64,000 nucleotides of DNA from Mycolicibacterium holsaticum DSM 44478 = JCM 12374 (GTDB lineage Bacteria; Actinomycetota; Actinomycetes; Mycobacteriales; Mycobacteriaceae). The stretch covers positions 3,348,001-3,412,000 of the forward strand of contig NZ_CP080998.1 of assembly GCF_019645835.1 (NCBI RefSeq), given 5' to 3'. This document shows positions 44,518-63,274 of the stretch, piece after piece (position 1 is the stretch's first letter; each line of letters begins with the position of its first letter). The notes below the pieces were generated by a model that was given only the letters and a program-made list of their open reading frames with translations, did not search any database and was not told the origin of the DNA. Made by a program: the position numbers and the translations under genes.

Positions 44518-45074
44518 ACCGAGTACAGCGGCCGAAACGTCTGCGCCCCGAGGTCGAACAGGGTCTCGGTGGTAGCGACACCGTGATCGCGGACCCGCGC
44601 GGCAGCCAACGCGTGGGCCTTGAACGCCCGCGCGGCAACGCTCAACCGGTGCTCCCGCGGATCGATGCGACCGCCCAGGTCCTCGGGCCAGTGCTCGCCC
44701 CACACCGTCACCTCGGTTTCCCCGGCGTTCCACAGCGCCAGCACCCGGTCGCGTAGCCGCGCGTCGCGGCTCAGCACGTCAGCGCTGACGGCGACCGCGT
44801 CAGCCCCTGTCGCGGCCTCCAGCATCGACGTCGCGGTCGAGGGAAGCGGTGCCGCGCCCAGGATCGCCAGCGGCCGCACATCCCCCGGGTCGTCGACCAG
44901 CACGTTGACGCTCCAGCCCGCGCGGGCGCGGTCGAAAAGCCACCCGCCCGACGAGGCCACCAGATCGGCAAGGCCCGCGGCGATCACAGTGAGCCGGTGC
45001 CGATCGCTCGATGCAGCGCCGTCGTGCGCACCCTCGTCCACGTTGCCGGGGGCGCTGATGGGTCGGGTCGCCAT
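44514..45074 (-). CDS. Hypothetical actinobacterial protein
   Basis: A 186-residue soluble protein that I do not recognise. It contains [45 protein letters not shown] and a segment rich in Ala and Arg ([17 protein letters not shown]). No signal peptide, membrane segment or catalytic motif is visible. It is divergent from the DUF427 gene, with the GTGACA-N14-TGTAAA element in the 149-base gap, and its stop overlaps that of the DUF2631 gene. Confidence 0.75.
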
Positions 45075-45111: not shown

Positions 45112-45137
45112 GTGACATTTTTACGGCGATCTGTAAA
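45112..45137 (+). promoter_or_regulatory. Shared element copy 1: GTGACA-N14-TGTAAA
   Basis: GTGACA (45112-45117) and TGTAAA (45132-45137) flank 14 bases, between the hypothetical gene at 44514 and the DUF427 gene at 45224. An internal TTTAC-N8-GTAAA dyad (45120-45137) is also present. See the other copies at 49095, 56478, 61510 and 63249. Confidence 0.6.
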
Positions 45138-45223
45138 GGTCCGGCGCGCGGTGACGACGCCGAAACGTGCCGGAATTCGGCTTCGACGGCTCAGCGCGGG
45201 CCGATGTTTGTCAGAGTGAGTGC

Positions 45224-45916
45224 ATGAGTCTGGTCGCCGGGCGGGGCCCGCTGAGCAAGAATCGCGCCGGTTGGTTCTCCCCCCCGCTGCCCGAGGCGGT
45301 CTATGTCGAACCGCACCCCCGCCGCGTCCAGGGTCTGCGCGACGGCCGGGTGGTCATCGACACCGAACGCGTGCTGCTGGTGCACCGGTGCGATCACCCG
45401 CTGAGCTACGCGTTCGCCGCCGACGAGGTCGGTGACCTTCCGCATGAGCCGGTGCCGGAGGCGCCCGGGTTCGTGCGGGTGCCGTGGGACGCGGTCGAGA
45501 CGTGGCTGGAGGAAGGACGCCGGCTCGTGCGCTATCCGCCGAACCCCTATCACCGGGTGGACTGTCGCCCGACGACACGTCGATTGCGCGTCGCGGTCGG
45601 CGACACCACGCTCGTGGACACCGCCGACACCGTGATCGTGTTCGAGACCTCGGTGCAGACACGGCTTTACGTCGATCGTTCGCATGTCCGCACCGATCTG
45701 CTGAGACGCTCCGCGACCACCAGCTACTGCAACTACAAGGGCTACGCCACCTACTGGTCGGCGGTGATCGGTGGCGATGTCGTCGAGGACGTGGCCTGGA
45801 GTTATCCGGACCCGCTGCCCGAAAGCGCGCCCATCAGGGGGTTTTTCAGCTTCGACACCGAGCGCGTCGACGTGCTGGCCGAACTGCCCGCAGCGCCCCT
45901 CGATCGCCGAACGTGA
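45224..45916 (+). CDS. Double DUF427-domain protein
   Basis: A 230-residue protein with two DUF427 (SMa0103-like) beta domains: the first around AVYVEPHPRRVQGLRDGRVVIDTERVLL and the second around RRLRVAVGDTTLVDTADTVIVFET, followed by TSYCNYKGYATYWSAVIGG and VAWSYPDPLPESAPIRGFFSF, the family signature. The ATG at 45224 begins MSLVAGRG; earlier codons lack family sequence. Function of DUF427 is not known. It is probably transcribed alone and converges on an LLM gene. Confidence 0.85.
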   Translation: MSLVAGRGPLSKNRAGWFSPPLPEAVYVEPHPRRVQGLRDGRVVIDTERVLLVHRCDHPLSYAFAADEVGDLPHEPVPEAPGFVRVPWDAVETWLEEGRRLVRYPPNPYHRVDCRPTTRRLRVAVGDTTLVDTADTVIVFETSVQTRLYVDRSHVRTDLLRRSATTSYCNYKGYATYWSAVIGGDVVEDVAWSYPDPLPESAPIRGFFSFDTERVDVLAELPAAPLDRRT

Positions 45917-45955
45917 GCTTGTGTTCGATCAGACGGCGAAACCTCGCACAGAACT

Positions 45956-46873
45956 TCACGTTCGGCCGATCACCGAACTCCCGAATTCCTCGATGGTGTC
46001 GAGGACATGGGCGAGGCTGTCCCCGGGCAGGCCCACCTGCACCCAGGTGACGCCCACGGCGGCCAGCTTTTCCAGCCCGGACAGGTAGGCGTCGGCGTTG
46101 AACCCGTCGCTGCCGGGAGTTCCGCCGTCGGGGTTGGTGAACGTGATCTCGATATCGGCGAAGTCCCGCCCGGCCTCGTCGAACCGCCGGCGAAGATCGT
46201 CGATGCCCGCGGCCAGACCGTCGGCATCCATCGCCGCGGTGCGCGCGGTCTGCGCCAACAACGCCGGCGCGGCGAACGGGCACCAGCCGTCACCGAACTT
46301 GACGACCCGTCTGCGGGCCGCTGCGGTGTTGCCGCCGATCCAGATCGGCGGGTGCGGATCGCTCACCGGGCGCGGATGCGCGGTGATACCGCTCGCGCTG
46401 AAATGGCGGCCCTCGTAGGAGAAGTCGTCGGTGGTCCAGATGCCCCGGATGACCTCCAGCGCCTCTTCGAACAGTACGGCGCGTTCGTCGAACTCCACCC
46501 CCAGCGCCGTGAACTCCCGCTTGAGATAGCCCACCCCGACCGCGAGCGTGAACCGGCCCTGCGACAACAGATCCAACGTGGCGCCCGCCTTGGCCACCAC
46601 GAACGGGTTGCGGTACGGCAGCACCACGATGTTGGGGATCAGCCGCAACGTCGTCGTGGTGGCCGCGGCGAAACCCATTGCCACGAACGGGTCGACCGCG
46701 TCGTGCCCGCCGGCCTTCAGCCACCGCTCGGTGGGTGCGGGATGGTCGGTGAACCCGAAGCCGTCGAAGCCGGCCTTCTCGGCCGCCGCGGCCACCGCGG
46801 CGATGCCCGCACCCGTCACCAACTCCGGGTTGTAGGGATGGCTGTGCATCGGATGGGTGAACGTGAACCGCAT
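45956..46873 (-). CDS. LLM-class F420-dependent oxidoreductase
   Basis: A 305-residue luciferase-like monooxygenase-family enzyme. FGFTDHPAPTERWL, VLPYRNPFVVAKAGATLDLLSQGRFTLAVGVGYLKREF and PPIWIGGNTAAARRRVVKFGDGW are family hallmarks, and a C-terminal GVTWVQVGLPGDSLAHVLDTIEEFG closes the barrel. GGAG lies 7 bases before ATG 46873. It is divergent from a second, different LLM gene (46993). Confidence 0.88.
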   Translation of the reverse strand: MRFTFTHPMHSHPYNPELVTGAGIAAVAAAAEKAGFDGFGFTDHPAPTERWLKAGGHDAVDPFVAMGFAAATTTTLRLIPNIVVLPYRNPFVVAKAGATLDLLSQGRFTLAVGVGYLKREFTALGVEFDERAVLFEEALEVIRGIWTTDDFSYEGRHFSASGITAHPRPVSDPHPPIWIGGNTAAARRRVVKFGDGWCPFAAPALLAQTARTAAMDADGLAAGIDDLRRRFDEAGRDFADIEITFTNPDGGTPGSDGFNADAYLSGLEKLAAVGVTWVQVGLPGDSLAHVLDTIEEFGSSVIGRT

Positions 46874-46887
46874 GCAGGTGCTCCGCT

Positions 46888-46921
46888 CTAGAACATTCTT
46901 CTCGATTTGTGAGAATGTCGT
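46888..46921. promoter_or_regulatory. Dyad between divergent LLM genes
   Basis: acattct and agaatgt are 7-base inverted arms around 12 bases. The rightward reading also gives TAGAAC-N16-GAGAAT, the same hexamer spacing as the shared element, but the hexamers differ, so I do not count it as a copy. Confidence 0.35.
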
Positions 46922-46992
46922 TACCATGCGGGCAGTCGAAAGTACAGCCCCACGCGCCGCACACCGCCAACCGAAGATGGGAACCCGCGTCC

Positions 46993-47925
46993 ATGAGCAA
47001 GCCCGAGATCGGCGTCTACCTACCCCAGATGGGCTTCACCTACGACGAGGTCCTGCACCGGACCCGTCGGTGCGAGCAGCTCGGCATCGACTCGGTGTGG
47101 CTCTATGACCACCTCTACGGACCGGGCGTTCCCGACTACCCGTCGCTGGAGGCGTGGACGCTGGCGACCGCGCTGCTCAGCAACACTGAGCGCATCGAGA
47201 TCGGACACATGGTGTTGTGCAACCAATTCCGTCATCCCGCGGTGCTGGCCAAGATGGCCACGACGCTCGATCAGATCTCGGCGGGTCGCCTGCAATTGGG
47301 AATCGGCAGCGGGTCGATCGAGGACGAGCACCACCGGGTGGGCCTGGACTGGGGAACGTTTCGGGAGCGCTCCGAGCGGCTGGGCGAGACGCTGGAGATC
47401 CTGCATCAGGCGTTCGCCGACGAGGTGATCGACTTCACCGGTAAACATTTCACCGTGCAGGACATGCCGATCAAACCGGGACCGGCCCGCCGGCCGCGCC
47501 CGCCGATCGTGGTGGGCGGTGTCGGCGAGAAGTACACGCTGCCGTTGGTGGCGCGGTATGCCGATGTGTGGAACGTGCCCACCTACGCGTTGGGCGAACT
47601 GGAATCGAAGACGTCGGTGCTGCGCCGGCTCTGCGAGCAGGCCGGCCGCGATCCGTCGACGATTGTGCTGTCGGTGGAGGCGGTGATGGCGCTGGCGCCC
47701 GATGACGCGTCGCTGCCGTCCGTGCGGCAGCTGGCCGAAAAGCGTTTCGGAGCACCGGCGTTCGGGCTGAAGGAGGGCGGGCTGGTCGGCACGGCGCCTG
47801 CCATCCTCGACCGCCTGCATCAGCTTCGGGAACTCGGCTTCGGCCAGATCGTATTGTTCACCCACGACCGCGCATCCGATGAGACGCTCGAGCTGCTGGC
47901 CGCCGAGGTGATCGCCAAGCTCTAG
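46993..47925 (+). CDS. LLM-class F420-dependent oxidoreductase
   Basis: A 310-residue luciferase-like enzyme. DSVWLYDHLYGPGVPDYPSLE, NTERIEIGHMVLCNQFRHPAVLAKMATTLDQ, LQLGIGSGSIEDEHHRVGL and PPIVVGGVGEKYTLPLVARYADVWN fit the F420-dependent TIGR/LLM group, and it is clearly distinct from the two other LLM genes here. The ATG at 46993 begins MSKPEIGVYLPQ; no strong ribosome binding site is visible. Its stop shares CTAG with the stop of the convergent acyl-CoA dehydrogenase. Confidence 0.87.
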   Translation: MSKPEIGVYLPQMGFTYDEVLHRTRRCEQLGIDSVWLYDHLYGPGVPDYPSLEAWTLATALLSNTERIEIGHMVLCNQFRHPAVLAKMATTLDQISAGRLQLGIGSGSIEDEHHRVGLDWGTFRERSERLGETLEILHQAFADEVIDFTGKHFTVQDMPIKPGPARRPRPPIVVGGVGEKYTLPLVARYADVWNVPTYALGELESKTSVLRRLCEQAGRDPSTIVLSVEAVMALAPDDASLPSVRQLAEKRFGAPAFGLKEGGLVGTAPAILDRLHQLRELGFGQIVLFTHDRASDETLELLAAEVIAKL

Positions 47926-49091
47926 CCGGGTCGCTTCGCCGGCGGCGAGTAGTTCGGGCGGCCCAGGCCCAACGCGTGCTGGGCGATCATGTTGCGGAAC
48001 ACCTCCAGCGTGCCGCCGTAGATGCCGGTGGGCACCGCCAACCGGAACAGGTACTCGCACGCCCCGTCGGCTGCGGCGCCGTCGGCCTCCACGGGCAGGG
48101 TCCCCGCGGCGCCGAGGATGTCCATCAGCTCCGGGGTGACCTCACGCATGGTCTGCGCGTTGGCGACCCGGCCGAACATGCCCGGGGTGCTGATCGCCGC
48201 CTCCATCCGGGAAATAGCGTGGCCCAGCCGATATTTCACCGCGTCGTCGTCGCCGGCGAGCGCGGCGACCTTGTCGATCGCCTCGCCGACCAGCAGGAGG
48301 TGTTCGGTCATGGTGGCGAGCTTCTGCAGCCCCTGGTCGTCGCGTTCGACGGTGCCGTGTTCGGCGTTGAGCGCTTCGCGCAGCACCGTCCAGCCGCCGT
48401 TGACCTCGCCGACCCGGTACCGGTCGGCGACGCGTACGTCGCTGTAGTAGGTGATGTTGGTGCGGTCGCCGTCGACGGTGCGCAACGGCTGGATCTCCAC
48501 ACCCGTGGTGTCCAGCGGCACCAGGAACATGGTCAGGCTCTGATGTTTGGGTGCATCCGGAGCGGTGTTGGTGATCAGGAAGACGTACTGGGCGTTGTGG
48601 GCGTTGGAGGTGAACATCTTGGAGCCGTTGATCACCCAGCCCTCACCGTCGCGCACCGCGCGTGTCTTGCAGGTGGCGACGTCCGAGCCGCCTTCGGGTT
48701 CGGTGTAGCCCAGACACAACCGCACGCGACCCGACAACACCTCCGGCAGCAGTTCGTCGAGCAACTCCGGTGCGGCGAACTGCTGCAGGCAGCGCGCCAC
48801 CATCATCGTGGTGGGCCAGTGGAACCACGGGGTGTGCGCGCGGCCGATCTCCAGTTCCCAGATGCGCCGGCACACGGCGGAGAAGCCGCCCTCGGACTCG
48901 GGTTTGAAGTCGGCGGCCAGATAGCCCTGCGCACCGAGCGCCAGATGCACACCCTCGTCGAAGTTCTCACCCGTCTCGCGGTCACGCCGGATGACGTCGT
49001 CGGTCACCAGGGTGCGCAGGACGCCGCGCAGTTCATCGCGGAACGCCCGGTCTTCGTCGGACAGTTGCACGTGCGAGAAATCCACCACCAC
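47922..49091 (-). CDS. Acyl-CoA dehydrogenase
   Basis: A 389-residue flavoenzyme of the acyl-CoA dehydrogenase family (N-terminal helical, beta and C-terminal helical domains). LCLGYTEPEGGSDVATCKTRAVRDGEGWVINGSKMFTS is the conserved FAD/substrate segment; TGIYGGTLEVFRNMIAQHALGLGRP is the C-terminal family signature. It would introduce a double bond into an acyl-CoA. Start is one of three consecutive GTG codons (49085, 49088, 49091) directly before DFSHVQLSDEDRAF. The catalytic base could not be placed with certainty. Confidence 0.88.
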   Translation of the reverse strand: MVVDFSHVQLSDEDRAFRDELRGVLRTLVTDDVIRRDRETGENFDEGVHLALGAQGYLAADFKPESEGGFSAVCRRIWELEIGRAHTPWFHWPTTMMVARCLQQFAAPELLDELLPEVLSGRVRLCLGYTEPEGGSDVATCKTRAVRDGEGWVINGSKMFTSNAHNAQYVFLITNTAPDAPKHQSLTMFLVPLDTTGVEIQPLRTVDGDRTNITYYSDVRVADRYRVGEVNGGWTVLREALNAEHGTVERDDQGLQKLATMTEHLLLVGEAIDKVAALAGDDDAVKYRLGHAISRMEAAISTPGMFGRVANAQTMREVTPELMDILGAAGTLPVEADGAAADGACEYLFRLAVPTGIYGGTLEVFRNMIAQHALGLGRPNYSPPAKRPG

Positions 49092-49094
49092 ACC

Positions 49095-49120
49095 GTGACA
49101 TTCAGCCGCATTTTTGTAAA
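49095..49120 (+). promoter_or_regulatory. Shared element copy 2: GTGACA-N14-TGTAAA
   Basis: GTGACA (49095-49100) and TGTAAA (49115-49120) flank 14 bases. Read as a promoter, TAAAGT (49117-49122) would be the -10 hexamer, 16 bases after GTGACA, and the ATG at 49129 starts 6 bases downstream, which fits leaderless transcription of the SRPBCC gene. Confidence 0.65.
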
Positions 49121-49128
49121 GTGAGCGG

Positions 49129-49596
49129 ATGGGTATCGTGACGACGACTTCGGAGACCACCTTTCACCAGGCACCGGAGGTGATCTACGACTTCGTCACC
49201 AACCCGGCGAACTGGACGAAGACCTATCCGGGCAGTGCGCACATCGGTGGCCTGCCCGCGAACCTGCCGCTGAAGGTCGGCGATACCTGGACCGAGGCGG
49301 GGCCTGACGGCGACCGCATCTTCACCTGGCACCTGGCCATCGCCATGCGTCCCACCATGTGGGTGTTCAACTCGGTCGGCCGCCTCGGTCACGACGCCGA
49401 GGGCAACGGCGGCATGGCGGGACGCATCACGGTGCACTATCACTTCACCCAACCCGGGGCCGGGATCACGTTGTTCACCAGGACCATGACGGTCGAGGCC
49501 TACAAGCACGCACCCCTGCCCGACGGGTTCTTCCGCACGGTCAACCCCGCCCACATCGACGCCTACCACGCCGCGGTCGCTAGGGAATTGACGTGA
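49129..49596 (+). CDS. SRPBCC-fold (polyketide cyclase-like) protein
   Basis: A 155-residue START/SRPBCC-type protein: SETTFHQAPEVIYDFVTNPANWTKTYPGSA is the first strand and helices, LPLKVGDTWTEAG follows, and a final long helix ends the chain after RTMTVEAYKHAPLPDG. These proteins have a hydrophobic cavity and may bind or modify lipids or aromatic compounds. The start is ATG 49129, close behind element copy 2. Its stop codon lies inside the left arm of a strong hairpin. Confidence 0.83.
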   Translation: MGIVTTTSETTFHQAPEVIYDFVTNPANWTKTYPGSAHIGGLPANLPLKVGDTWTEAGPDGDRIFTWHLAIAMRPTMWVFNSVGRLGHDAEGNGGMAGRITVHYHFTQPGAGITLFTRTMTVEAYKHAPLPDGFFRTVNPAHIDAYHAAVARELT

Positions 49597-49646
49597 TTTG
49601 TGTGCGTTTAGGCGCGCCACGCGCAACAAAACGCACACAAATCACG
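49592..49646. terminator. Strong bidirectional hairpin with 18-bp perfect stem
   Basis: cgtgatttgtgtgcgttt (49592-49609) pairs exactly with 49629-49646 around a 19-base loop. The TGA of the SRPBCC gene (49594-49596) is in the left arm and the stop of the convergent esterase (49642-49644) in the right arm, so it can terminate both transcripts. Arm ends are T-rich on either strand. Confidence 0.82.
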
Positions 49647-50559
49647 AGGGGCGGTGCAGTGCCCTGCGCAGCGCGGCGCCCTGCAGCGCGAACAACTGCT
49701 CGCTGATCTCCCAGTCCGGCAGCAGCGAATCGAACCCGTGACACGTGCCCGGGTACACGTGCAGCTCGGTCGACACCCCGGCCCGCAGCAACCGGCTCGC
49801 GTAGTCGATGGCTTCGTCGCGCAGCGGGTCGAGCTCCGAGCAGGTGATCAGAGCCGCTGGTACACCGGACAACTGGGTGCTGCGGGCCGGTGCGGCATCG
49901 TCGGACACCGGCTGTTCGCCCAGATAGTGGCGCCACATCCACCGCGCGGCCGGACCGTCGAATCCGGGGGTCGTGCCGAACTCGCCCTTCGACGGTGTCG
50001 CCCGATCGTCGAGCACCGGCTGATGCAGCAGCTGAAATACCACCGGCGGTGCGGATCCGGCGGCGGCGCGCTGGGCCAGCCGGGCCGCCAGCGCACCACC
50101 GGCGCTGCTACCCGCCACCGCCAGCCGGGCGGTGTCGATCCCCAGCTCCGCCGCGTTGGACACCGCCCCGCCCAGCACCGCCACGGCGTCGTCGAGCCCG
50201 GCCGGATACGGGTGCTCGGGGGCCAACCGGTAGTCGACGGAGATCACCGTGCAGCGGCCGCGTCTGGCGAACTCCACGCACTGTCGGTGATCGGTATCGA
50301 GGTTGCCCAGCACGAACGCCCCTGAGTGGCAGTAGATCACCGCCGGGGCCGGTGACGACGTGCCACGGTAGATCCGCACCGGGACCGAGCCCACCGCTCG
50401 GTTCTCGATCTCGACGCCGATGGTGTCGACACCGCGTGCGGCGTCGGCGCGGCGCTGGTTCAGCGAATCGCGGACCACGCCGAGCACACCCGGCGACAGG
50501 TCGGTGCGCGCGTCGGCGAAGTGGCGAAGCGCGGGGTCGAGCCGATCGACGATGTCCAC
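49642..50559 (-). CDS. HSL-family alpha/beta-hydrolase (esterase), last gene of the BVMO operon
   Basis: A 305-residue esterase of the hormone-sensitive-lipase family. The nucleophile Ser is in VAGSSAGGALAARL, Asp in CSELDPLRDEAIDYA and His in YPGTCHGFDSLLPDW. The oxyanion motif is YCHSGAFVLG, so the usual HGGG reads HSGA, a variation that may alter substrate preference. It begins at GTG 50559, 6 bases after the Baeyer-Villiger monooxygenase, which suggests it hydrolyses the ester or lactone made by that enzyme. The gene ends in the strong hairpin at 49592-49646. Confidence 0.9.
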   Translation of the reverse strand: MDIVDRLDPALRHFADARTDLSPGVLGVVRDSLNQRRADAARGVDTIGVEIENRAVGSVPVRIYRGTSSPAPAVIYCHSGAFVLGNLDTDHRQCVEFARRGRCTVISVDYRLAPEHPYPAGLDDAVAVLGGAVSNAAELGIDTARLAVAGSSAGGALAARLAQRAAAGSAPPVVFQLLHQPVLDDRATPSKGEFGTTPGFDGPAARWMWRHYLGEQPVSDDAAPARSTQLSGVPAALITCSELDPLRDEAIDYASRLLRAGVSTELHVYPGTCHGFDSLLPDWEISEQLFALQGAALRRALHRPS

Positions 50560-50565
50560 GGCCGG

Positions 50566-54480: not shown

Positions 54481-54481
54481 G

Positions 54482-55711
54482 TCAGACCTCCACCTGGACG
54501 GGAACGCTGTTCCAGCCCCACTGGAAGCTCGACGGCGGACGCGATGCGGCCTCGCCGATGATGCGCCACTCGGGGACCCGACGCAGCCACTCCTGCACCA
54601 GGACGGCGATCTCGAGGCGCGCGAGATGCACGCCGAGGCAGAAGTGTTGGCCGCGGCCGAATGCCAGCAGGCGCTCGATCGGGCGGTTCCAGATGAACGC
54701 GTCGGGGTCGGGGTATTCGCGTTCGTCGCGGTTGGCCGAGGCCAGCAGCGTGATGACTCTGCTGCCCGGGACCAACGTGGTGCCTGCGACGGTGAACGGT
54801 TTGCGTACGGTGCGGGCGAACCATTGCGCGGGTGCGCAGTAGCGGATCATCTCTTCGCGCGCGACCGGCACGTTGGCCGCCGGGTCGGTCCGCACGGCCC
54901 CCAGTTGGCCGGGATGTTTGGCGAGTTCCCATAACCCGTGCGCCACGATTTTCGGCACGGTCTCGGTGCCGCCGATGAAGACGGCCAGCATCTGCGTGGC
55001 GGCTTCGACGTCGTTGAACGCCGAACCGTCGGGCAGCCGGTACTCGACGAGGTTATCGGCGATCGGATTGTGTCCGGCCTCGGCGCGACTGCGCTGCACC
55101 AGCGGGATGAGGTATTCCAGATACCCGGGCCGGGCGTTGGCCACCTCCACGCCGCTGCCCGGCTGAGCGAGGTTGCCCGCGTTGACGGTGGCCAGCACCT
55201 CGGGCGCGAGTTCGGTTGGCATGCGCAGCAAGTCGCAGACGATCGAGGCGGCCACGATACCGCCGTACTCCTGGGTGAGGTCGAATGTCCCCCGCGGCAG
55301 CAGTTCGTCGAGGCGCTCGTTGGCAAGGACGCGGATCCGGTCGGCCAGCGCGGTGACGGGCTTGGGCCGGAACTGCCCGGCGGTGCAGCGGCGCACGCCC
55401 TCGTAGATCGGGCTGTCGAAGTTGGCGTGAAACGGCATCGGGTGCAGCGGCGGGTCGGGCACCGGGCCGTTGTTGTGGCGCGCCAGAACGGTTGCGGCGG
55501 GCAGCGTCCCCTCCGACGCGACGAAGGTGCCGTCGTTGACCTCCAGCACCCGCCAGATGTCGTCGAACCGCGACAGCGCATAGGTGTCCCACTTGTCGAT
55601 GTAGTACACCGGATACTCGTCGCGCAGCACCCGGTAGTACGACAGCGGATCGGCCATCACGGCCGGATCGAACGGATCGTAGGAAAAGCCTTGCTGCACG
55701 GTCGTCGTCAT
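54482..55711 (-). CDS. Cytochrome P450
   Basis: A 409-residue soluble bacterial P450. The heme-binding loop FGRGQHFCLGVHLA places the Cys ligand at 358; the ExxR helix is in REEMIRYCAP, with meander RPIERLLAFGRG. The I-helix oxygen-activation motif reads IGGTETVPK instead of the more usual GxDTT, with Glu in place of Asp. It is second in the operon: its ATG overlaps the NIPSNAP-like stop. No ferredoxin is adjacent, so electrons must come from another ferredoxin, for example the one at 60048-60239. Confidence 0.92.
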   Translation of the reverse strand: MTTTVQQGFSYDPFDPAVMADPLSYYRVLRDEYPVYYIDKWDTYALSRFDDIWRVLEVNDGTFVASEGTLPAATVLARHNNGPVPDPPLHPMPFHANFDSPIYEGVRRCTAGQFRPKPVTALADRIRVLANERLDELLPRGTFDLTQEYGGIVAASIVCDLLRMPTELAPEVLATVNAGNLAQPGSGVEVANARPGYLEYLIPLVQRSRAEAGHNPIADNLVEYRLPDGSAFNDVEAATQMLAVFIGGTETVPKIVAHGLWELAKHPGQLGAVRTDPAANVPVAREEMIRYCAPAQWFARTVRKPFTVAGTTLVPGSRVITLLASANRDEREYPDPDAFIWNRPIERLLAFGRGQHFCLGVHLARLEIAVLVQEWLRRVPEWRIIGEAASRPPSSFQWGWNSVPVQVEV

Positions 55712-56442
55712 TGCAGTGGTGAAGGGGGTAGGGCCGTCAGAATCGAGTCTTCCCAGCCGTCGCGCAGCGCGGGCGCGACGCTCATCCAGGTGACGATCTC
55801 GGCGGGCGGGTTGTCTTTCCAGGACGGGTAATGGTTGGCGAAGCAGTCCCAGTCCCCCTCCAGCGCCCAGTAGTGGATCACCTCGTTGAACCGGAAGGTC
55901 GTGATGAACGAACCGAGCCAACGCTTTCCGGTCCGCTCCGACCACGGCACGTAGAGCCGTTCGAGCTCGCGGATGTAGTCGTCCTGGCGGCCGGGCTTGG
56001 TCTGCATGATCTCCTGGATCACCAGGCCCGCGGTGAACCCGGTCTCCTGCAGCTGCGCCAGTGTCCGGTTGCTCCTGCCCGCGTACATGATCCGGCCCTC
56101 ACCGCGGGCGCCGATCTCGGCCAGGAACGACGACCATTTCGCCGCGGCCGCTTCGTGGCTGCCGCCGCGGGCCTGTGCCGCGCCGATGCGCGCGTAGTCG
56201 GCGAACTCGTCGATCTCCCAGATGATCGTCACCTGGGGCCAGTGCCCGTTGTACGGAGTGGTCTCCCAGATCGCGAACAACCGCGCCCCGAGTTCGGCCA
56301 TCATCGGGTGGTACACGTCGCTGAACGTCTCGGTGAACCGGCCGTCGCCCTGGCCTTCGCTTCGGTGGTGTCCTCCGCGGCCTGATCCGAGGTCGATGGT
56401 TTCGTGGAGATAGAGAAGCGTATGGCCGTGGTATCGCTTCAT
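55708..56442 (-). CDS. NIPSNAP-like protein, first gene of the BVMO operon
   Basis: A 244-residue protein made of two ferredoxin-like (dimeric alpha-beta barrel) repeats. MKRYHGHTLLYLHETIDLG begins the first, with ETFSDVYHPMMAELGARLFAIWETTPYNGHWPQVTIIWEI; the second includes LVIQEIMQTKPGRQDDYIRELERLYVPW and RFNEVIHYWALEGDWDCFANHYPSW. NIPSNAP-type proteins are poorly understood and may bind small molecules or lipids. The ATG at 56442 gives the natural start. It opens the seven-gene operon, so it is likely required for the pathway, perhaps in substrate handling. Confidence 0.78.
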   Translation of the reverse strand: MKRYHGHTLLYLHETIDLGSGRGGHHRSEGQGDGRFTETFSDVYHPMMAELGARLFAIWETTPYNGHWPQVTIIWEIDEFADYARIGAAQARGGSHEAAAAKWSSFLAEIGARGEGRIMYAGRSNRTLAQLQETGFTAGLVIQEIMQTKPGRQDDYIRELERLYVPWSERTGKRWLGSFITTFRFNEVIHYWALEGDWDCFANHYPSWKDNPPAEIVTWMSVAPALRDGWEDSILTALPPSPLQ

Positions 56443-56477
56443 GACCTGCGCCCATTTGACAGTGACACCCTGCGAGC

Positions 56478-56503
56478 GTGACACTTACCGCGTGATTTGT
56501 AAA
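56478..56503 (+). promoter_or_regulatory. Shared element copy 3: GTGACA-N14-TGTAAA
   Basis: GTGACA (56478-56483) and TGTAAA (56498-56503) flank 14 bases, 36 bases upstream of the seven-gene operon. The GTG chosen as the SMP-30 start (56492) lies within it, which argues for an operator acting on the minus-strand operon, or for a different SMP-30 start. Confidence 0.6.
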
Positions 56504-57328
56504 GGCGTCGACACGCTGAGCCCGCTCGCGCAGGGGTTCTGCTTCGGGGAGGGCCCGCGCTGGTTCGAAGGGCTGCTGTGGTTCTCCGACATGCTCGGTG
56601 AAGCCGTGCACACCGTCACCCTGCACGGCGCGATGACCACGCTGCCGCTGCCCGGTCACGCACCCTCGGGGTTGGGCTTCTCCCCCGACGGGTCCCTGCT
56701 GATCGTCTCGACCGAGAAACGCGCGGTGCTGCGCTACGACGGTGACGTCGTGACGACCGTCGCCGACCTGTCCGGGACCGTACCGGCCGACCTGGGCGAT
56801 CTGGTCGTCGACGACCGCGGCCGCGCCTACGTCGGGGCGCAGGCGTTCGAAGGCGGTGTGATCGTGCGAGTCGACAGCGACGGCTCCTCGACCGTCGTTG
56901 CCGAGGACCTCGCCTTCCCCAACGGGATGGTGATCACGCCGGGGGGCGACACGCTGATCGTCGCGGAGTCGATCGGCAGGCGGCTGACCGCGTTCACCGT
57001 CGCGCGCGACGGGTCGCTGACCGACCGGCGGGTGTTCGCCGACGCGCTCGACGGTCCGCCCGACGGGATCTGCCTGGACGCCGACGGCGGAGTCTGGGTG
57101 GCGATGACCCTTGCGCACCAGTTCGAGCGAATCATCGAGGGCGGCAACGTCACCGAACGTATCGACATCGGTGATCGGGCCGCGATCGCGTGCACGCTCG
57201 GCGGCCCCGAGCGCCGCACGTTGTTCCTGGTGTCGGCCGCCGACGCCTACCCGAAGCAGTTGATCGGCACGAAGCTGTCCCGCGTCGACACCATTACCGT
57301 CGAGATCCCCGGAGCCGGGCTGCCATGA
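56492..57328 (+). CDS. SMP-30/gluconolactonase/LRE-like protein
   Basis: A 278-residue six-bladed beta-propeller hydrolase. QGFCFGEGPRWFEGLLWFSDM holds the first metal-binding Glu, FPNGMVITPGGDTLIVAES the Asn, and LDGPPDGICLDADGGVWVAM the Asp of the Ca/Zn centre. These enzymes hydrolyse lactones, which would suit lactones made by the divergent Baeyer-Villiger operon. The GTG at 56492 is the first start that keeps the conserved GEGPRW motif. The thioesterase gene overlaps its stop. Confidence 0.86.
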   Translation: MICKGVDTLSPLAQGFCFGEGPRWFEGLLWFSDMLGEAVHTVTLHGAMTTLPLPGHAPSGLGFSPDGSLLIVSTEKRAVLRYDGDVVTTVADLSGTVPADLGDLVVDDRGRAYVGAQAFEGGVIVRVDSDGSSTVVAEDLAFPNGMVITPGGDTLIVAESIGRRLTAFTVARDGSLTDRRVFADALDGPPDGICLDADGGVWVAMTLAHQFERIIEGGNVTERIDIGDRAAIACTLGGPERRTLFLVSAADAYPKQLIGTKLSRVDTITVEIPGAGLP

Positions 57329-58140
57329 GCGATGCGTACTACGAGCTGATCGACGGCACCGACCCGCTCGGTGAACGTTTCGCCGCAACCGATCTCGTGC
57401 GCAGCACCTGGTCGGCCGCGATCCAGCACGGCGCGCCGGTGTCGGCTCTGCTGGTGCGCGGTCTGCAGCGTTGTGAGGCGCGGCCCGACACGCGGTTGAG
57501 CCGGGTGATGGTGGACCTGCTCGGCGGTGTTCCCGCCGAGGGGGATCTGTGGGTGCGGTCGCGGATCGAGCGCCCGGGCAAGCAGATCGAGTTGGTCAGC
57601 GCCGAGATGCTCGCGCGCGGACCCGACGGTGCGCCGCGGCCGGTGGCCAAGGCCAGCGGGTGGCGGCTCAAGACGTTCGACACCCCCTCGCTGCTGCATG
57701 CGCCGGCGCCGCCGCTGCGCCCGCTCAGCGAGGCACGCGGCCACGACATGAAGAAAGACTGGGACCGCAACTACGTGCACAGCCTGGACTGGCGGTGGCT
57801 GACCAAGCCGCTCAGCGACGGGCCCGGCGAATCCTGGATCAAGCCGGAGGTCGACCTGGTCGCCGGCGAGTCGATGACCCAGCTGGAGCGGCTGTTCGCC
57901 GTCGCCGATGACGCCAACGGGATCGGCACCAAGCTCAACCCCGCGAACTGGACGTTCATGAACACCGACCTCGTCGTCCACGTCCACCGGGTCCCCGACG
58001 GGGAGTGGATCGGCATCCGGGCCGACACCAAGTACGGGCCCGACGGCATCGCCACGACGATCGGCACGCTGTTCGATGAAACCGGCGCTGTCGGAGGCAT
58101 TCAGCAGTCGGTGCTGGTGCGGCCGATGCCGGGCCGCTGA
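57325..58140 (+). CDS. TesB-like acyl-CoA thioesterase
   Basis: A 271-residue double-hotdog thioesterase. YYELIDGTDPLGERFAATDLVRSTWSAAIQHGAPVSALLVRGLQ is the first hotdog helix and GGVPAEGDLWVRSRIERPGKQIELVSAEMLARG its sheet; NWTFMNTDLVVHVHRVPDGEWIGIRADT forms the second fold with the catalytic Asp-type residues. It would release free acid from acyl-CoA. Its ATG overlaps the SMP-30 stop. An IS481 element begins 11 bases after its stop, so any original downstream partner could be separated. Confidence 0.84.
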   Translation: MSDAYYELIDGTDPLGERFAATDLVRSTWSAAIQHGAPVSALLVRGLQRCEARPDTRLSRVMVDLLGGVPAEGDLWVRSRIERPGKQIELVSAEMLARGPDGAPRPVAKASGWRLKTFDTPSLLHAPAPPLRPLSEARGHDMKKDWDRNYVHSLDWRWLTKPLSDGPGESWIKPEVDLVAGESMTQLERLFAVADDANGIGTKLNPANWTFMNTDLVVHVHRVPDGEWIGIRADTKYGPDGIATTIGTLFDETGAVGGIQQSVLVRPMPGR

Positions 58141-58151
58141 CCCCCGCTAGC

Positions 58152-59228
58152 TGTAATGACCAGGCAGGTTGTGGACGGCGTGGCGTGAGGAAGTAGGTGA
58201 GGACCTCCGGTATCGGTGTGGTTACCACACTCACATCGATCACCGAGAGGTCCTCATGTCTCACGCTAATGCCTTGTTGACCCCGAAGGGGCGACTGCGC
58301 CTGGCCCGCTGTGTCGTGGATCAGGGTTGGCCGCTGCGCCGGGCTGCTGAGCGGTTCCAATGCTCACCGACCACAGCGAAGAAGTGGGCGGAGCGCTATC
58401 GCGTCGGCGGCGTGGCGGCGATGGTCGATCGCTCCAGCCGTCCGTCGGTCAGCCCGAACCGGACTCCGAAGAAGACCGAGCGTCGAATCATCAACCTGCG
58501 TTTCACGCGCCGGTGGGGACCACATCGAATTGCCTATCACCTGCACCTATCGCGCTCGACGGTGCAGGCGGTGCTGCGCCGTCACCGGATGCCGCTGCTG
58601 CGCCATCTGGATCACAACACCGGCCTGGCGGTACGTCGGCCGACCCCGCACCGGTATGAACATCTGGCGCCGGGGGATCTGGTGCACGTGGACATCAAAA
58701 AGCTTGGTCGTATCCCCGATGGTGGCGGGCATCGCAAACTCGGTCGCACGATCGGCAACCGGCACAACAACAAGCACGGCCGCGGCTATGCCTATCTGCA
58801 TCACGCCGTCGATGACCACTCCCGGTTGGCCTACTCCGAGATTCTCGACGACGAGCGCAAGGAAACCGCCGTAGCCTTCTGGCAGCGGGCCAAACAATCC
58901 TTCGCCGAGCATGGCATCGTCATCAAAGCGGTGCTGACTGACAACGGATCCTGTTACCGTTCAAAGCTTTTCGCCCAAGCGCTTGGTTCCGATGTCAAGC
59001 ATAAGAAGACCCGCCCGTACCGGCCGCAAACCAACGGGAAAGTCGAGCGATTCAACCGCACCCTCAACCAGGAATGGGCCTACGCCCAGACCTACCTCAC
59101 CGACGAGGCCCGCGCAGCGACCTACCAGGCATGGATTCACCACTACAATCACCACCGACCCCACACCGGCATCAAGGGCAAGACACCTATCGAACGCCTC
59201 GACGTTCACAACCTCCCCGCGAAGAACA
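58152..59228 (+). mobile_element. IS481-family insertion sequence, intact, with target duplication
   Basis: The element of 1077 bp begins TGT and ends ACA. Imperfect terminal inverted repeats (58152-58185 and 59195-59228) share AGGTTGTGNACGNCGNGGCG-type sequence. It is flanked by a 6-bp direct duplication gctagc (58146-58151 and 59229-59234), matching the NCTAGN target known for IS481. It carries one transposase gene whose stop codon is provided by the flanking target copy. Confidence 0.93.
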
Positions 59229-59233
59229 GCTAG
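58256..59233 (+). CDS. IS481-family transposase
   Basis: A 325-residue transposase with an N-terminal helix-turn-helix (RLARCVVDQGWPLRRAAERFQCSPTTAKKWAERY) and an rve/DDE integrase core: first Asp in GDLVHVDIKKLG, second Asp in KAVLTDNGSCYRS, Glu in RPYRPQTNGKVERFNRTLNQEWAY. All three acidic residues are present, so it may be active. The codons for Asn-Ser and the TAG stop (59231-59233) extend past the IS end into the target duplication. A TTG upstream at 58169 would be an alternative start but the ATG at 58256 matches the family. Confidence 0.93.
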   Translation: MSHANALLTPKGRLRLARCVVDQGWPLRRAAERFQCSPTTAKKWAERYRVGGVAAMVDRSSRPSVSPNRTPKKTERRIINLRFTRRWGPHRIAYHLHLSRSTVQAVLRRHRMPLLRHLDHNTGLAVRRPTPHRYEHLAPGDLVHVDIKKLGRIPDGGGHRKLGRTIGNRHNNKHGRGYAYLHHAVDDHSRLAYSEILDDERKETAVAFWQRAKQSFAEHGIVIKAVLTDNGSCYRSKLFAQALGSDVKHKKTRPYRPQTNGKVERFNRTLNQEWAYAQTYLTDEARAATYQAWIHHYNHHRPHTGIKGKTPIERLDVHNLPAKNS

Positions 59234-60003
59234 CCGACGCAGTCACCGGTGGGGACGGGCGCCGAGCTGTCGGCGTTGACCGCGATGCCGAAGAGCTGTT
59301 TGCCGGTGAGCACGAAACTGGAGTCGGGATCCTCCACGGACGCCCCGAACGCCAGGCCGAGAATCCGGCTGTTCAGGTCGATGAGGGGTCCGCCGGATCC
59401 GCCCTGCCGGACGCCGCCGCGCACGATGTACACCTCACGGTGCACGGTCTTGGTGCGGTAGATGTCGGGTCCGCTGAGCTCGATGAGGTCGCGCACCCGC
59501 GCCGGGGTGGCGACGAACGGCCCGCCGCCCGGGTAACCCAGGATCAACGCGTCTGCGCCCGATGGCGCCGTCTCTTCGGCGAACGCCAGCGCCGGGGCCT
59601 CCAACCCGGGCACGTCGAGGATCGAGACGTCGGCGTCGGGGTCGTAGAACACCACCGTGGCGGGATACTCACCGCCGTCGACCGACACGGTGATCTCGGT
59701 GGCGCCCGCCACACCGTGGGCACTGGACATCACCCGGTGCGGCGCGAAGACCACGCCGCTGCCGTCCAGCAGCTTCTGGCACGACGGCGCCATGCTGTGG
59801 ACCTTGGCCACACTGCGGTGCGCCTGGGCGATCACCGGACTGTTCGCCAACGCGGCGTCGGGCGGGTCCACCGCGGCAATCGTCGCCGCCTCGACCGGTG
59901 GCATCGCCACCTCGGCTGCGGGCCATGGGCCCGAGCAGCCGGATATCCCGGCCGCGGTCAGAGCGGCGGCGAGCACCGTCACCACCCGTCGAATCGGTCT
60001 CAT
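59230..60003 (-). CDS. MarP-like serine protease, lipoprotein form
   Basis: A 257-residue trypsin-like protease. Its N-terminus VVTVLAAALTAAGISGC ends in a lipobox-like site (Cys near 23), so it is probably a lipoprotein, unlike MarP, which has four membrane helices. The protease domain resembles MarP: His in RVMSSAHGVAG, Asp in YDPDADVSIL, Ser in VRQGGSGGPLIDLN. Most of a MarP-type periplasmic domain is present, including the C-terminal Cys in PTGDCVG. It starts at ATG 60003, and its stop lies in the IS target duplication. Confidence 0.83.
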   Translation of the reverse strand: MRPIRRVVTVLAAALTAAGISGCSGPWPAAEVAMPPVEAATIAAVDPPDAALANSPVIAQAHRSVAKVHSMAPSCQKLLDGSGVVFAPHRVMSSAHGVAGATEITVSVDGGEYPATVVFYDPDADVSILDVPGLEAPALAFAEETAPSGADALILGYPGGGPFVATPARVRDLIELSGPDIYRTKTVHREVYIVRGGVRQGGSGGPLIDLNSRILGLAFGASVEDPDSSFVLTGKQLFGIAVNADSSAPVPTGDCVG

Positions 60004-60047
60004 TGCGGAAACGATAGATGCCGGTCGCGGCGCGGGCATTCGGTGGT

Positions 60048-60239
60048 TCAGTCGATCACGCGCAGCGCGGCCACCGGGCACTGCGTGACGGCCTGGTGCA
60101 TCCGGTCACGATCGGATTCGGGCCGTTCATTGCCGTGGATCACCACGGTGCCGTCGTCGGTCACCTCGAACACGTCGTCGGCGATCGATTCGCAGACGCC
60201 GTGCCCGGTGCACTTGTCGAGGTCCACTTCGACGCGCAT
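60048..60239 (-). CDS. 3Fe-4S ferredoxin for a P450
   Basis: A 63-residue ferredoxin with Cys10, Cys16 and Cys54 as cluster ligands and His13 at the position of the fourth ligand (CTGHGVC, QCPVAAL). This CxxHxxC pattern is known for mycobacterial P450 ferredoxins with a 3Fe-4S cluster. It lies 7 bases after the P450 gene and most likely passes electrons to it, and perhaps to the P450 at 54482. The first codon is ATG 60239. Confidence 0.93.
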   Translation of the reverse strand: MRVEVDLDKCTGHGVCESIADDVFEVTDDGTVVIHGNERPESDRDRMHQAVTQCPVAALRVID

Positions 60240-60246
60240 ACGTCTC

Positions 60247-61500
60247 CTACTGGATGTGCGCCGGCAGGCGCTTGATTCCGTGTACGAAGTTGCTGAGCAG
60301 CAGGTCGGGCTCGCCGAATTCCACGCATTTGAGCCGAGTCAACAACTCGCGGAACAAGTTTCGCAGTTCGGTCTTTGCGAGCTGATTCCCGAGGCAAAAG
60401 TGTGGCCCACCGCCGCCGAAACCCAGGTGCGGGTTGGGTGAGCGTTGCAGGTTGAACGTGTGCGGTGCGTCGAACACGGTGTCGTCGCGGTTGGCCGAGC
60501 AGTAGAACAGGCCCAGCTTGTCGCCTGCGCTGATCTGCTGGCCGGCGACCTCGGTGTCCTGGGTGGCGAACCGCGCGAACTGCAACACCGGCGTAGACCA
60601 ACGGACGAATTCTTCGACAGCCCAGGTGATCCGGCCGTCGAAGTCCTCCATCAGCCAGTCCCGCTGCGCCGGGTTGTTCACCAGCGCCAGCATCGCGTGT
60701 GACGTCGTCTGCTTCGTGGTGTCGTTGCCGGCCGACGCGAGCAGCAGCAGGAACGCGCCGACCTCCTCATCGGTCAGCCGGTGCCCGTCCACTTGAGCCT
60801 CGACCATGCTGGTCATCAGGTCGTCACCGGGATTGCTGCGGCGGAACTTCGCGAGTTCGATGCCGGTGTTGACCAACAACATCATCTCGTTCATGGTGTT
60901 CTGCGCCCGCTCCTCCAGTGAGGAGTACTCGTCATCGCTCATCGAGAACAGCTTCTCGGCCGCCTTGGCGACCGCTTCGCGTTCCGACGGTGCCACCCCG
61001 AGCATTTCGGAGATGGTCATCATCGGCAGCCGGGCCGAACATGCCGTCACGAAGTCGACGTCCCCCGCGCCGATCAGGTCGTCGACGACGCTGACCGCGT
61101 TCTTGTGGATCTGGTCCTCGATCTGGCGCACGTTGCGCGGGGTGAACGCCGAACTGACCAATCGGCGGTAGACGGTGTGCTGCGGGGGATCCATCCCCAG
61201 AAAGAACGTGGCGATTTTCTGAATCTCGGCCGGCATCGGATCGAGCGCGACGCCCTGGGCCGACGTGAACAGTTCGGGGTGCTGGCTGACATGGACGATG
61301 TCGGCCCGACGCGTCACCGCCCAGAAGCCCGGCTCGACGGTGTCGAACAGCGACGGCAGCGGCTGATGCCAGCTGAGCCCTTCACCGGCGCGCAGTTTCG
61401 CGAACGTCTGGTCACGCACATCGAAGGGTTGGCACCAGAATTCGCGCGTGGAAAGGTCGTGCGGGCTGTATTCACGGAACTGCGGGCTCAGGACAGTCAC
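60247..61500 (-). CDS. Cytochrome P450
   Basis: A 417-residue P450. The heme loop is LGFGGGGPHFCLGNQLAK, the I-helix motif SAGNDTTKQTTSHA with the standard Asp-Thr pair, and the ExxR helix AVEEFVRW. FWAVTRRADIVHVSQHPELFTSAQG and GMDPPQHTVYRRLVSSAF resemble steroid/lipid-oxidising actinobacterial P450s, such as the CYP125/CYP142 group, but the exact family cannot be assigned. It starts at GTG 61500, divergent from the TetR gene, with the shared element between them. Confidence 0.9.
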   Translation of the reverse strand: MTVLSPQFREYSPHDLSTREFWCQPFDVRDQTFAKLRAGEGLSWHQPLPSLFDTVEPGFWAVTRRADIVHVSQHPELFTSAQGVALDPMPAEIQKIATFFLGMDPPQHTVYRRLVSSAFTPRNVRQIEDQIHKNAVSVVDDLIGAGDVDFVTACSARLPMMTISEMLGVAPSEREAVAKAAEKLFSMSDDEYSSLEERAQNTMNEMMLLVNTGIELAKFRRSNPGDDLMTSMVEAQVDGHRLTDEEVGAFLLLLASAGNDTTKQTTSHAMLALVNNPAQRDWLMEDFDGRITWAVEEFVRWSTPVLQFARFATQDTEVAGQQISAGDKLGLFYCSANRDDTVFDAPHTFNLQRSPNPHLGFGGGGPHFCLGNQLAKTELRNLFRELLTRLKCVEFGEPDLLLSNFVHGIKRLPAHIQ

Positions 61501-61509
61501 CGATTTAGC

Positions 61510-61535
61510 GTGACACTCCGACAAATTTTTGTAAA
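61510..61535 (+). promoter_or_regulatory. Shared element copy 4: GTGACA-N14-TGTAAA
   Basis: GTGACA (61510-61515) and TGTAAA (61530-61535) flank 14 bases, between the P450 and TetR starts. TAAAGC at 61532-61537 would be a -10 hexamer 16 bases after GTGACA, and the ATG at 61545 lies 7 bases further on. Confidence 0.65.
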
Positions 61536-61544
61536 GCTATGACG

Positions 61545-62081
61545 ATGCCGCACTCCTCGGCTGAACCCGATATCCCGACCCGTGAGCGGCTGTTGGCGGC
61601 CACGGCGGAGGTGCTGGGTCGCCACGGCATGACCAAGCTCAGCCTGTCGGACGTGGCGCTGGAGGCCGGGGTGTCACGGCCCACGCTGTACCGGTGGTTC
61701 GCCTCCAAACGGGAGCTGCTCGACGCGTTCGTGGTCTGGGAGCGGCAGTTTTACGAGCGCGCGGTGGCCGACGCGACGGCCGACCTGCCCGAGCACGAGC
61801 GGCTGGACGCGGCGTTGCGGGTGATCGTGGACTACCAGCATTCCTATCCGGGGCTGCGGATGATCGATGTCGAGCCCGAGCGGGTCATCAAGCGGCTGTC
61901 CCGGGTGATTCCATTGATGCGCCACCGGCTCGAACGGCTGGCCACCGGACCCGATCCCGCGCTGGCCGTCGCGACCGCCGTGCGCGTCGCGGTCTCGCAC
62001 TACCTGGTCCGCAGCGACGACGACGACGATTTCCTCGGCCAGCTGCGGCACGCGGCACGCATCAAGTACCGCTCGCCCTGA
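61545..62081 (+). CDS. TetR-family regulator
   Basis: A 178-residue repressor. The N-terminal helix-turn-helix is RERLLAATAEVLGRHGMTKL followed by SDVALEAGVSRPTLYRWFASKRELLDAF; the rest is the ligand and dimer domain, ending near LGQLRHAARIKY. The ATG at 61545 fits a leaderless transcript; ATG 61539 is two codons earlier. It is divergent from the P450-ferredoxin genes and its own promoter region carries shared element copy 4, so it is the best candidate to bind that element. Its 3' end overlaps the convergent CoA-transferase by 20 bases. Confidence 0.88.
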   Translation: MPHSSAEPDIPTRERLLAATAEVLGRHGMTKLSLSDVALEAGVSRPTLYRWFASKRELLDAFVVWERQFYERAVADATADLPEHERLDAALRVIVDYQHSYPGLRMIDVEPERVIKRLSRVIPLMRHRLERLATGPDPALAVATAVRVAVSHYLVRSDDDDDFLGQLRHAARIKYRSP

Positions 62082-63228
62082 GTTCGGCGAGCACCTCTGC
62101 GGTGTGCTCGCCGAGCTGCGGCGCCGCCGAACGCGGCGCCCATGGCGTGCCGGAGAAGTCGGCGGGCGAGGCGACCATCGGCACGGCCGCGTCGCCGTCG
62201 GGCACGTACACGATGCCGCCCGCGGCGTGAAACTGATCGTCGGACACCACGTCTTCGACGGAATTGATTGGCGCCCAGAACAATTCCGGTTCCGCGGCAA
62301 AAACCTCGGCCCATTCGTCGAGGGCTCTGGTGGCGAAGATCTCGTCGAGTTCGGCGATGAGCTCGACCGCGTGCACGGCGCGCGACCGCGCCGTCTCGTA
62401 GCGCGGATCGGTCAACCACTCGGGCCGGCCGGCCGCCCGGCACAGCGGCGGCCAGTGCCGGCCCGCCTCCAGGCCCACGAGCCAGAATCGCCGCCCGTCG
62501 GCGGCGACGTAATTGTTCATACAGGGGTTGCCCATCGTCTCGCGATCCCCGATGGCGATCGTATGGCCGGTCAACAAGAACGTGTTGAGGTCGAAGCTGA
62601 CCGTGTAGGCGCCCTGCCGGTACAGCGACGTGCTCACCAATTGGCCCTCGCCGGTGCGGGTTCGCGCCACCAACGCCGCGCACACCGCCGCGGCCAGCGT
62701 CATCCCGGCCGCGTGATCGCCCATTCCGCCGCGTTGAAACGGCGGCGCCTGGCCGGGCCGGGTGAGCAGGTGCGCCAGCCCGGCCCTGGCCCAGAACGCC
62801 GCGACGTCGTAGGCCGCCCGGTCGGCGTCGGGGCCGCTCTGGCCGTAGCCGGTGATCAGGCCGTACACCAGTCGGGGGTTGCCTGCCGCCACCGTCGCGA
62901 AGTCCAGCCCCATCCGCCGCAGCGCACCGACCCGCACGTTGGTGAGGAAAACATCTGCCGCCCCGAGTAATTCGAGCGCGGTGGCGCGCCCCTGCTCGGT
63001 GGTGATATCGAGCACGATGCTGCGCTTGCCGCGGTTGTCCATCTCGAACGGCGGGCTGCCGTCCCCCTCGATGCCCATGATCCGACCGAACGTGCGCGCC
63101 GGATCACCGGTCGGCGGTTCGATTTTGATGACGTCGGCGCCCCAGTCCGCCAGGATCCCGCCCGCGGCCGGCCCCGCGACCCACACCCCGAGTTCGACGA
63201 TCCGTATGCCTTCCAACGGTCCGGCCAT
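62062..63228 (-). CDS. Family III CoA-transferase
   Basis: A 388-residue CaiB/BaiF-type CoA-transferase. The N-terminal MAGPLEGIRIVELGVWVAGPAAGGILADWGADVIKIEPP and NRGKRSIVLDITTEQGRA are highly typical; LVYGLITGYGQSGPDADRAAYD carries the conserved Asp that forms the acyl anhydride (GPDADR region). It activates an acid as CoA thioester by transfer from another CoA ester. AAGGG lies 6 bases before ATG 63228. It would prepare substrates for the acyl-CoA dehydrogenase and thioesterase nearby. Confidence 0.91.
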   Translation of the reverse strand: MAGPLEGIRIVELGVWVAGPAAGGILADWGADVIKIEPPTGDPARTFGRIMGIEGDGSPPFEMDNRGKRSIVLDITTEQGRATALELLGAADVFLTNVRVGALRRMGLDFATVAAGNPRLVYGLITGYGQSGPDADRAAYDVAAFWARAGLAHLLTRPGQAPPFQRGGMGDHAAGMTLAAAVCAALVARTRTGEGQLVSTSLYRQGAYTVSFDLNTFLLTGHTIAIGDRETMGNPCMNNYVAADGRRFWLVGLEAGRHWPPLCRAAGRPEWLTDPRYETARSRAVHAVELIAELDEIFATRALDEWAEVFAAEPELFWAPINSVEDVVSDDQFHAAGGIVYVPDGDAAVPMVASPADFSGTPWAPRSAAPQLGEHTAEVLAELRASGT

Positions 63229-63248
63229 GCACATCCCTTCCGAGGTGA

Positions 63249-63274
63249 TTTACAAACTCCGCGAAATTTGTAAA
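63249..63274 (+). promoter_or_regulatory. Shared element copy 5: TTTACA-N14-TGTAAA (perfect dyad)
   Basis: The arms tttacaaa (63249-63256) and tttgtaaa (63267-63274) form an exact 8-bp dyad with a 10-base centre, using the same N14 spacing between TTTACA and TGTAAA. TAAACT (63271-63276) would be a -10 hexamer and the GTG at 63283 follows 6 bases later. Confidence 0.7.

Follow-up and report, generated by a model that had tools for sequence, protein, structure and literature searches.

TetR-family regulators of lipid metabolism in mycobacteria, among them KstR, KstR2, BkaR and FasR, act from palindromic operators placed at genes of lipid catabolism or lipid synthesis. The operator of KstR, TNNAACNNGTTNNA, differs from the element that concerns us here, KTKACA-N14-TGTAAA, five copies of which lie in a 64,000-nucleotide stretch (hereafter the ‘window’) of Mycolicibacterium holsaticum DSM 44478 = JCM 12374 (NZ_CP080998.1, positions 3,348,001 to 3,412,000), within a cluster of catabolic genes that also encodes a candidate regulator, TetR1 (61545..62081, forward strand). 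An earlier note, made from the letters alone, had offered two readings of this element: an operator, with the TetR gene at 61545 as nearest candidate, or a core promoter. Palindromes for KstR, KstR2 and BkaR are mentioned in the part of PMC4482099 available to us, which also quotes the case of QacR, an efflux regulator with four subunits (a tetramer) on a palindrome of 28 bp. The precedent that bears most directly on our locus is Rv0078, a TetR protein of Mycobacterium tuberculosis encoded divergently from Rv0077c; according to the available part of PMC6016246, 61 bp separate the two start codons, and the 21 bp operator, which takes two dimers, overlaps both divergent transcription starts.

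It is because of Rv0078 that we class the element with a known type of system: in both, a TetR gene diverges from its target, and the inverted repeat ends in the same outer TTTAC/GTAAC letters. Rv0078 is also a weak neighbour of TetR1 in both sequence and fold, at 17–18% identity in the fold alignment; FasR stands near in fold (ranks 2 and 4; 23–24% identity). The two operators differ in layout, the outer halves standing 13 apart around an inner GCAG/CTGC repeat for Rv0078 (PMC6016246, same part) and 16 apart here; a spacing of 16 between outer TTTAC/GTAAC halves gives 293 matches, against 10–43 at each of the 11 remaining spacings between 9 and 20, and the inner repeat GCAG-N-CTGC occurs in none of the five window sites, which sets them apart from an Rv0078-type operator. 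Rv0077c/Rv0078 is moreover a single gap, whereas the present system occupies six gaps in one cluster. For half-sites this widely separated, QacR, with its own long palindrome, offers a model, its role in efflux being the difference. A TetR operator lying across two divergent starts is, then, already known, and what is unusual here is the geometry. In the literature listings searched, we found no match for this motif together with a mycobacterial TetR protein, with the limit that the logos for 30 TetR genes in PMC4482099 are images, so that a match there is possible.

We consider it likely that a small TetR family has KTKACA-N14-TGTAAA as its operator and that, in this cluster, the element overlies a core promoter; the 26-base near-palindrome is very probably a TetR-repressor binding site. 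The quantities computed are the motif and its number, its fixed spacing, its conservation at orthologous gaps, its co-occurrence with TetR and the geometry of the neighbouring start codons. Working along the window from left to right, the pattern stands at 45112..45137 (site 1), 49095..49120 (site 2), 56478..56503 (site 3), 61510..61535 (site 4) and 63249..63274 (site 5), always with a spacer of 14; sites 1 to 4 are announced in the earlier note as GTGACA-N14-TGTAAA and site 5, TTTACA-N14-TGTAAA, is an exact outer dyad that also matches on the reverse strand, giving an extra sixth match row. Our scan bears out the five copies and their identical spacer as the note had them, along with its statement that each lies between divergent genes: HypA186/DUF427, acyl-CoA dehydrogenase (ACAD)/Hyp155, NIPSNAP-like/SGL, P450b/TetR1 and CoA-transferase/APH-like kinase, respectively.

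One hundred dinucleotide shuffles of the window contained the pattern a mean of 0.00 times. Across the whole genome (5,623,714 bases) it occurs at 10 places (11 strand matches), compared with 0.13 expected under independent, identically distributed letters and no match for the reversed pattern; the possibility raised in the note, that the pattern is simply scattered at random frequency, is not borne out. Six of these places fall within 20 kb, namely the five window sites and a sixth cluster copy just beyond the window (C1:3413014); the latter sits between the co-directional genes for TetR2 and aldehyde dehydrogenase (ALDH), so that ‘always divergent’ is true only of the window's five copies. 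Two more (C1:1097350 and C1:1097965) flank a distant paralogous tetR gene, encoding TetR3. The remaining two, upstream of a UDP-glucose dehydrogenase-like gene (5007785) and within the end of an MMPL gene (5039936), stand in no related context and may have arisen by chance. Loosening the pattern to at most 3 mismatches gained little (11 sites versus 3 control matches). Separately, we see two near-identical sequences 12.7 kb apart (G000:C1:4981321 and 4994044), each 3 mismatches from the operator consensus.

The same gaps carry the pattern in relatives. In 75 loci encoding TetR1 relatives (drawn from the best 80 of 235 confirmed stretches; 1,355,307 bases), the strict pattern gives 246 strand matches at spacer 14, with dyads counted twice, against a single match when the other 13 spacers between 8 and 21 are taken together. 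Assigned to orthologous gaps, and taking in the window and locus L011, the rows with a site number 58 for SGL, 53 for TetR1, 50 for APH, 49 for CoA-transferase and 48 for ALDH, the site at 63249 entering both the APH and the CoA-transferase rows; to 46 more rows our method assigned no gene. Conservation at matching gaps, on which the note had staked its proposal, thus extends across mycobacteria and, for two gap types, into other genera. A compact form of the cluster, with HypA186, CoA-transferase, DUF427, LLM_F420 and TetR2, is seen in M. palustre, M. persicum and M. nebraskense, whose loci belong to the ten inspected in full.

TetR1 belongs to the TetR family by its TetR_N domain (54.7 bits; curated cut-off, 24), and its AlphaFold2 model (23 sequences; mean pLDDT 88) is all-helical and typical of the family, its near neighbours being TetR folds, with no close relative found in the fold comparison. 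The start at 61545, the second RTG, is the conserved one, with ATG or GTG at that position in 53 of 53 rows, as the note had placed it. The closest TetR1 among the fetched named loci is that of Mycolicibacterium elephantis (92%; L071), and names are generic or absent among the first 120 of 2537 homologues. TetR2, with 64% identity to TetR1, is encoded just beyond the window, its gene standing between those for the APH-like kinase and ALDH, and TetR3, with 48% identity, 2.3 Mb away. No M. tuberculosis counterpart was found among the genomes searched, Rv1255c being a lead only.

Site and regulator occur together. Taking E <= 1e-20 as the threshold for TetR, 207 of 248 Mycobacterium genomes have the TetR protein and 200 the pattern: 197 have both, 10 TetR only, 3 the pattern only and 38 neither, an agreement of 235/248 that comes from comparing two listings, with 21 of the 41 TetR-negative genomes identified by elimination. 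The association is strong (Fisher p = 6e-32, ignoring kinship and genome size). No TetR reached E <= 1e-12 when all first-look candidates in the three pattern-only genomes (G092, G210 and G240) were rescored; the site is single in both G092 and G210, and no related genes lie within the surrounding 1.7–3 kb. As for the TetR-only genomes, both the sites and the tested catabolic genes are absent from the 16 and 17 kb looked at in G084 and G149, and in G042 the CoA-transferase gene is preceded by a looser site. Outside Mycobacterium (201 genomes of the Mycobacteriaceae family searched), the TetR protein is found in 5 genomes of 3 genera, 4 of which have the strict pattern and the fifth a one-base variant before tetR, compared with 1 of 20 TetR-negative genomes, and there by way of a repeated, unrelated palindrome. 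In G266, a g20 genome, the site lies between SGL and the NIPSNAP-like gene, and in three genomes of other genera (G360, G401 and G410) sites precede the genome's own tetR. Two of the tetR homologues (L152 of G401 and L153 of G360) are preceded by two N14 pairs overlapping with a 9-base offset. G261 (L166, L173), which has no TetR of this family, carries a perfect palindrome, TTTACACCCGCAGCTGCGGGTGTAAA, on many contigs; this is an unrelated repeat family.

The third paralogue shows the same architecture with an altered letter. Relatives of TetR3 at E <= 1e-60 are present in 16 of 118 genomes, and all 16 loci have at least two N14 places, one of these before tetR3. Of the TetR3 half-sites, 62 of 78 have A as the base inside TGTAAA, versus 29 of 398 in TetR1/2 loci (unique sites under a loosened pattern; related sequences are not independent). 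In the recognition helix, tryptophan stands in 105 of the 109 counted TetR1/2 matches, and histidine or tyrosine in all 12 of the 16 TetR3 loci where the helix pattern matched. We claim only a clade-level shift in the helix because homologues of other genera, with F, L or Y at this position, depart from the W versus H/Y division; the same residues contradict a single recognition-helix residue as the specificity switch. In the TetR3 loci L122, L123, L126, L128 and L130, two N14 sites often lie about 35–37 bases apart before the kinase gene.

Turning to the promoter, the usual -10 of M. smegmatis is ANNNT, 24% of its transcripts are leaderless and mycobacterial promoters have no conserved -35, according to the available part of PMC6448022. 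We tested the corresponding leaderless geometry, ANNNT-N6-RTG, that is, ANNNT about 7–11 bases before an ATG or GTG. It fits 197 of the 494 sides of 247 unique places, against 9 when displaced by 14 bases. Over these sides, ATG/GTG is counted 77, 166 and 43 times at offsets 8, 9 and 10, respectively, and 2–50 times at other offsets from 0 to 30. By class, ATG or GTG lies 9 bases after TGTAAA in all 53 TetR1 rows; in the ALDH class ATG is at 9 in 32 of 48 rows and one base further in the remaining 16; for the APH class, ATG/GTG is at 8 in 39 of 50; and on the P450b side a start codon is at 8, 9 or 10 in 40 of 53 rows, with none at 7 to 10 in 13. A T of ANNNT that is closer by one base, as for APH and Hyp155, goes with a start codon that is likewise closer by one; because the two shift together, start codons would appear to track the -10 rather than the operator edge. 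KTKACA falls at the -35 position, 16 or 17 from ANNNT, and the element thus looks like a core promoter as well, with leaderless geometry and putative starts.

Six of the ten window sides fit. At site 2 both do: ACAD (47922..49085, reverse strand) has its GTG 9 bases outside the site and Hyp155 (49129..49596, forward; weak Polyketide_cyc2 similarity, below cut-off) its ATG 8 bases outside. At site 4 both do again, the GTG of P450b (60247..61500, reverse), a CYP268A2-like protein (E = 1.3e-126), lying 9 bases outside and 45 bases from the start codon of TetR1. At site 5 the fit is on the side of the APH-like kinase (63283..64000, forward, continuing beyond the window end), with GTG 8 bases outside; on the other side the CoA-transferase family III gene (62062..63234, reverse) starts 14 bases outside, with a Shine-Dalgarno-like GGAAGG. 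At site 3 the left side fits, at a micro-ORF (open reading frame) before the NIPSNAP-like gene. ALDH, just outside the window, fits also. Bidirectional promoters of E. coli, as described in the available part of PMC12825309, share a -10, and the usual distance between their starts is 18, 10 or 23 bp; the likeness is that symmetrical DNA could seat RNA polymerase either way, one at a time. The arrangement at site 4 departs from this type, since the putative starts at 61500 and 61545 are 45 bases apart and have separate -10s, the -35 and -10 halves being shared.

Put together, the evidence favours both of the note's alternatives at once, an operator and a core promoter, with TetR1 (61545), its near-twin TetR2 and the distant TetR3, whose operator is slightly different, as a family of regulators. 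KTKACA would serve as the -35 and ANNNT, its A inside TGTMAM and its T in the flank, as positions -11 to -7, the leaderless transcript beginning at the ATG or GTG 6 bases beyond; at places like site 4 this would run in both directions, each half supplying the -35 of one gene and the -10 of its neighbour. TetR1 and/or TetR2, spanning half-sites 20 bases apart, would exclude RNA polymerase when bound, blocking both genes where both sides fit, until a pathway compound, perhaps an acyl-CoA or a ketone, released the repressor. TetR binding and repression, the sigma factor, the transcription starts and the ligand are what we infer here; the inverted repeat at the regulator's own promoter (site 4 at tetR1) is observed, and conserved in 53 rows. 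A wider proposal is possible, though we lean a little against it: a reusable symmetrical module, in which a palindrome of 26–32 bases is both TetR operator and two-way leaderless core promoter, the polymerase facing a single direction at any moment; both directions would be gated by one repressor, or by two that are nearly identical but differ in ligand, and duplication of tetR would have spread the module to further gene sets, changing a base of the code.

Several results weigh against an operator overlying a promoter. The leaderless geometry holds on both sides at only 27 of 247 places and is absent from 297 of 494 sides, whilst the -10, AAAGCT, conserves little beyond its A and T. The 75 loci were selected by TetR similarity, making enrichment beside tetR partly conditional. 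Ten genomes have TetR without a strict site, two g20 genomes have no strict site in the roughly 1.5 kb or less around tetR, and G240 is a genuine exception, with sites but no detected TetR of this family: 2 of its 4 matches lie at the correct orthologous gaps and the catabolic genes persist (L175). The ten genomes and the two sites kept in G240 would suit an operator for some other, unlinked regulator whose evolution ran in step with that of the gene set. Such a regulator is improbable given the positions of the sites at the tetR1 promoter, before ALDH beside tetR2 and, with a shifted base, at the tetR3 promoter, as well as before the tetR genes of the three genomes from other genera; relatives of the one other TetR-type gene near the cluster end (L011:4571-5215), rejected as the regulator, turn up in just 2 of the 75 loci.

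A core promoter and nothing more, read by sigma-A or another sigma factor with the TetR neighbours incidental, would account for the resemblance of GTGACA/TTTACA to TTGACA, the spacing of 16–17 to ANNNT and the fixed distance of start codons on many sides. We disfavour it, and give it marginally less weight than the unlinked regulator: the spacer of 14 is near-invariant (246 to 1) while mycobacterial promoters lack a conserved -35 (PMC6448022, available part), the motif is palindromic with TGT outside the -10, the element follows three TetR paralogues, and the sides without the start-codon geometry still have the element. Chance alone, acting on A+T-rich words in a G+C-rich genome, may explain the two places without related context; as an account of the clustering it is scarcely credible and is rejected by the shuffles, the reversed control, the low expectation, the spacer test and conservation at orthologous gaps.

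An operator overlying a promoter in this cluster would act on genes whose content fits oxidative breakdown of a ketone or lipid: two P450s, a BVMO-like flavoprotein (PDB matches confined to residues about 90–330, part of the protein), acyl-CoA dehydrogenase, luciferase-like oxidoreductases, an alpha/beta hydrolase, a zinc alcohol dehydrogenase, an HpcH-type lyase, the SGL lactonase-like protein, a 4HBT thioesterase, CoA-transferase III, the APH-like kinase and aldehyde dehydrogenase. The note's regulon of ‘ketone/lipid catabolism’ is consistent with this content. Site 1 is flanked by HypA186 (44514..45074, reverse; no Pfam match) and a DUF427 protein (45167..45916, forward; longest ORF, putative start). 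An IS481-type transposase gene lies within the cluster (58169-59233) and is not among the best matches in the 75 relatives.

Site 3 was said in the note to overlap a start codon. This is doubtful, as is an SGL start inside the site: the in-frame GTG there reads into a stop in the relative L018, and the SGL (SMP-30/gluconolactonase-like) coordinates, 56441..57328 on the forward strand, are those of the longest ORF with a putative start. To the left, a leaderless-looking micro-ORF of 9 codons (56439..56468, reverse) has its GTG 9 bases outside the site, its stop overlapping the ATG of the NIPSNAP-like gene (55708..56442, reverse; 21.7 bits, cut-off 22.3), which is itself on the same strand as, and upstream of, P450a. 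GTG or ATG is kept at the micro-ORF start in 50 of 58 SGL rows; 47 rows have a stop at most 150 bases from it, 40 of them ending in NTGA, and overlap with the NIPSNAP-like start is seen in only a few frames. Within site 3 (56489-56495), the spacer GCGTG is conserved in the SGL class beyond the operator halves, at 84–96% per base over most of its length.

A P450/BVMO-like/CoA-ester breakdown cluster that is widespread in mycobacteria, and whose database matches bear only generic names, gains from this analysis a probable operator, a set of targets and a likely regulator, with likely start codons and promoters fixed to the base; the TetR family could switch the whole breakdown pathway on and off. 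Three natural TetR paralogues sharing one operator architecture make a change of DNA specificity measurable. If the two-way overlay is true, it would represent a compact design for co-regulating divergent leaderless genes.

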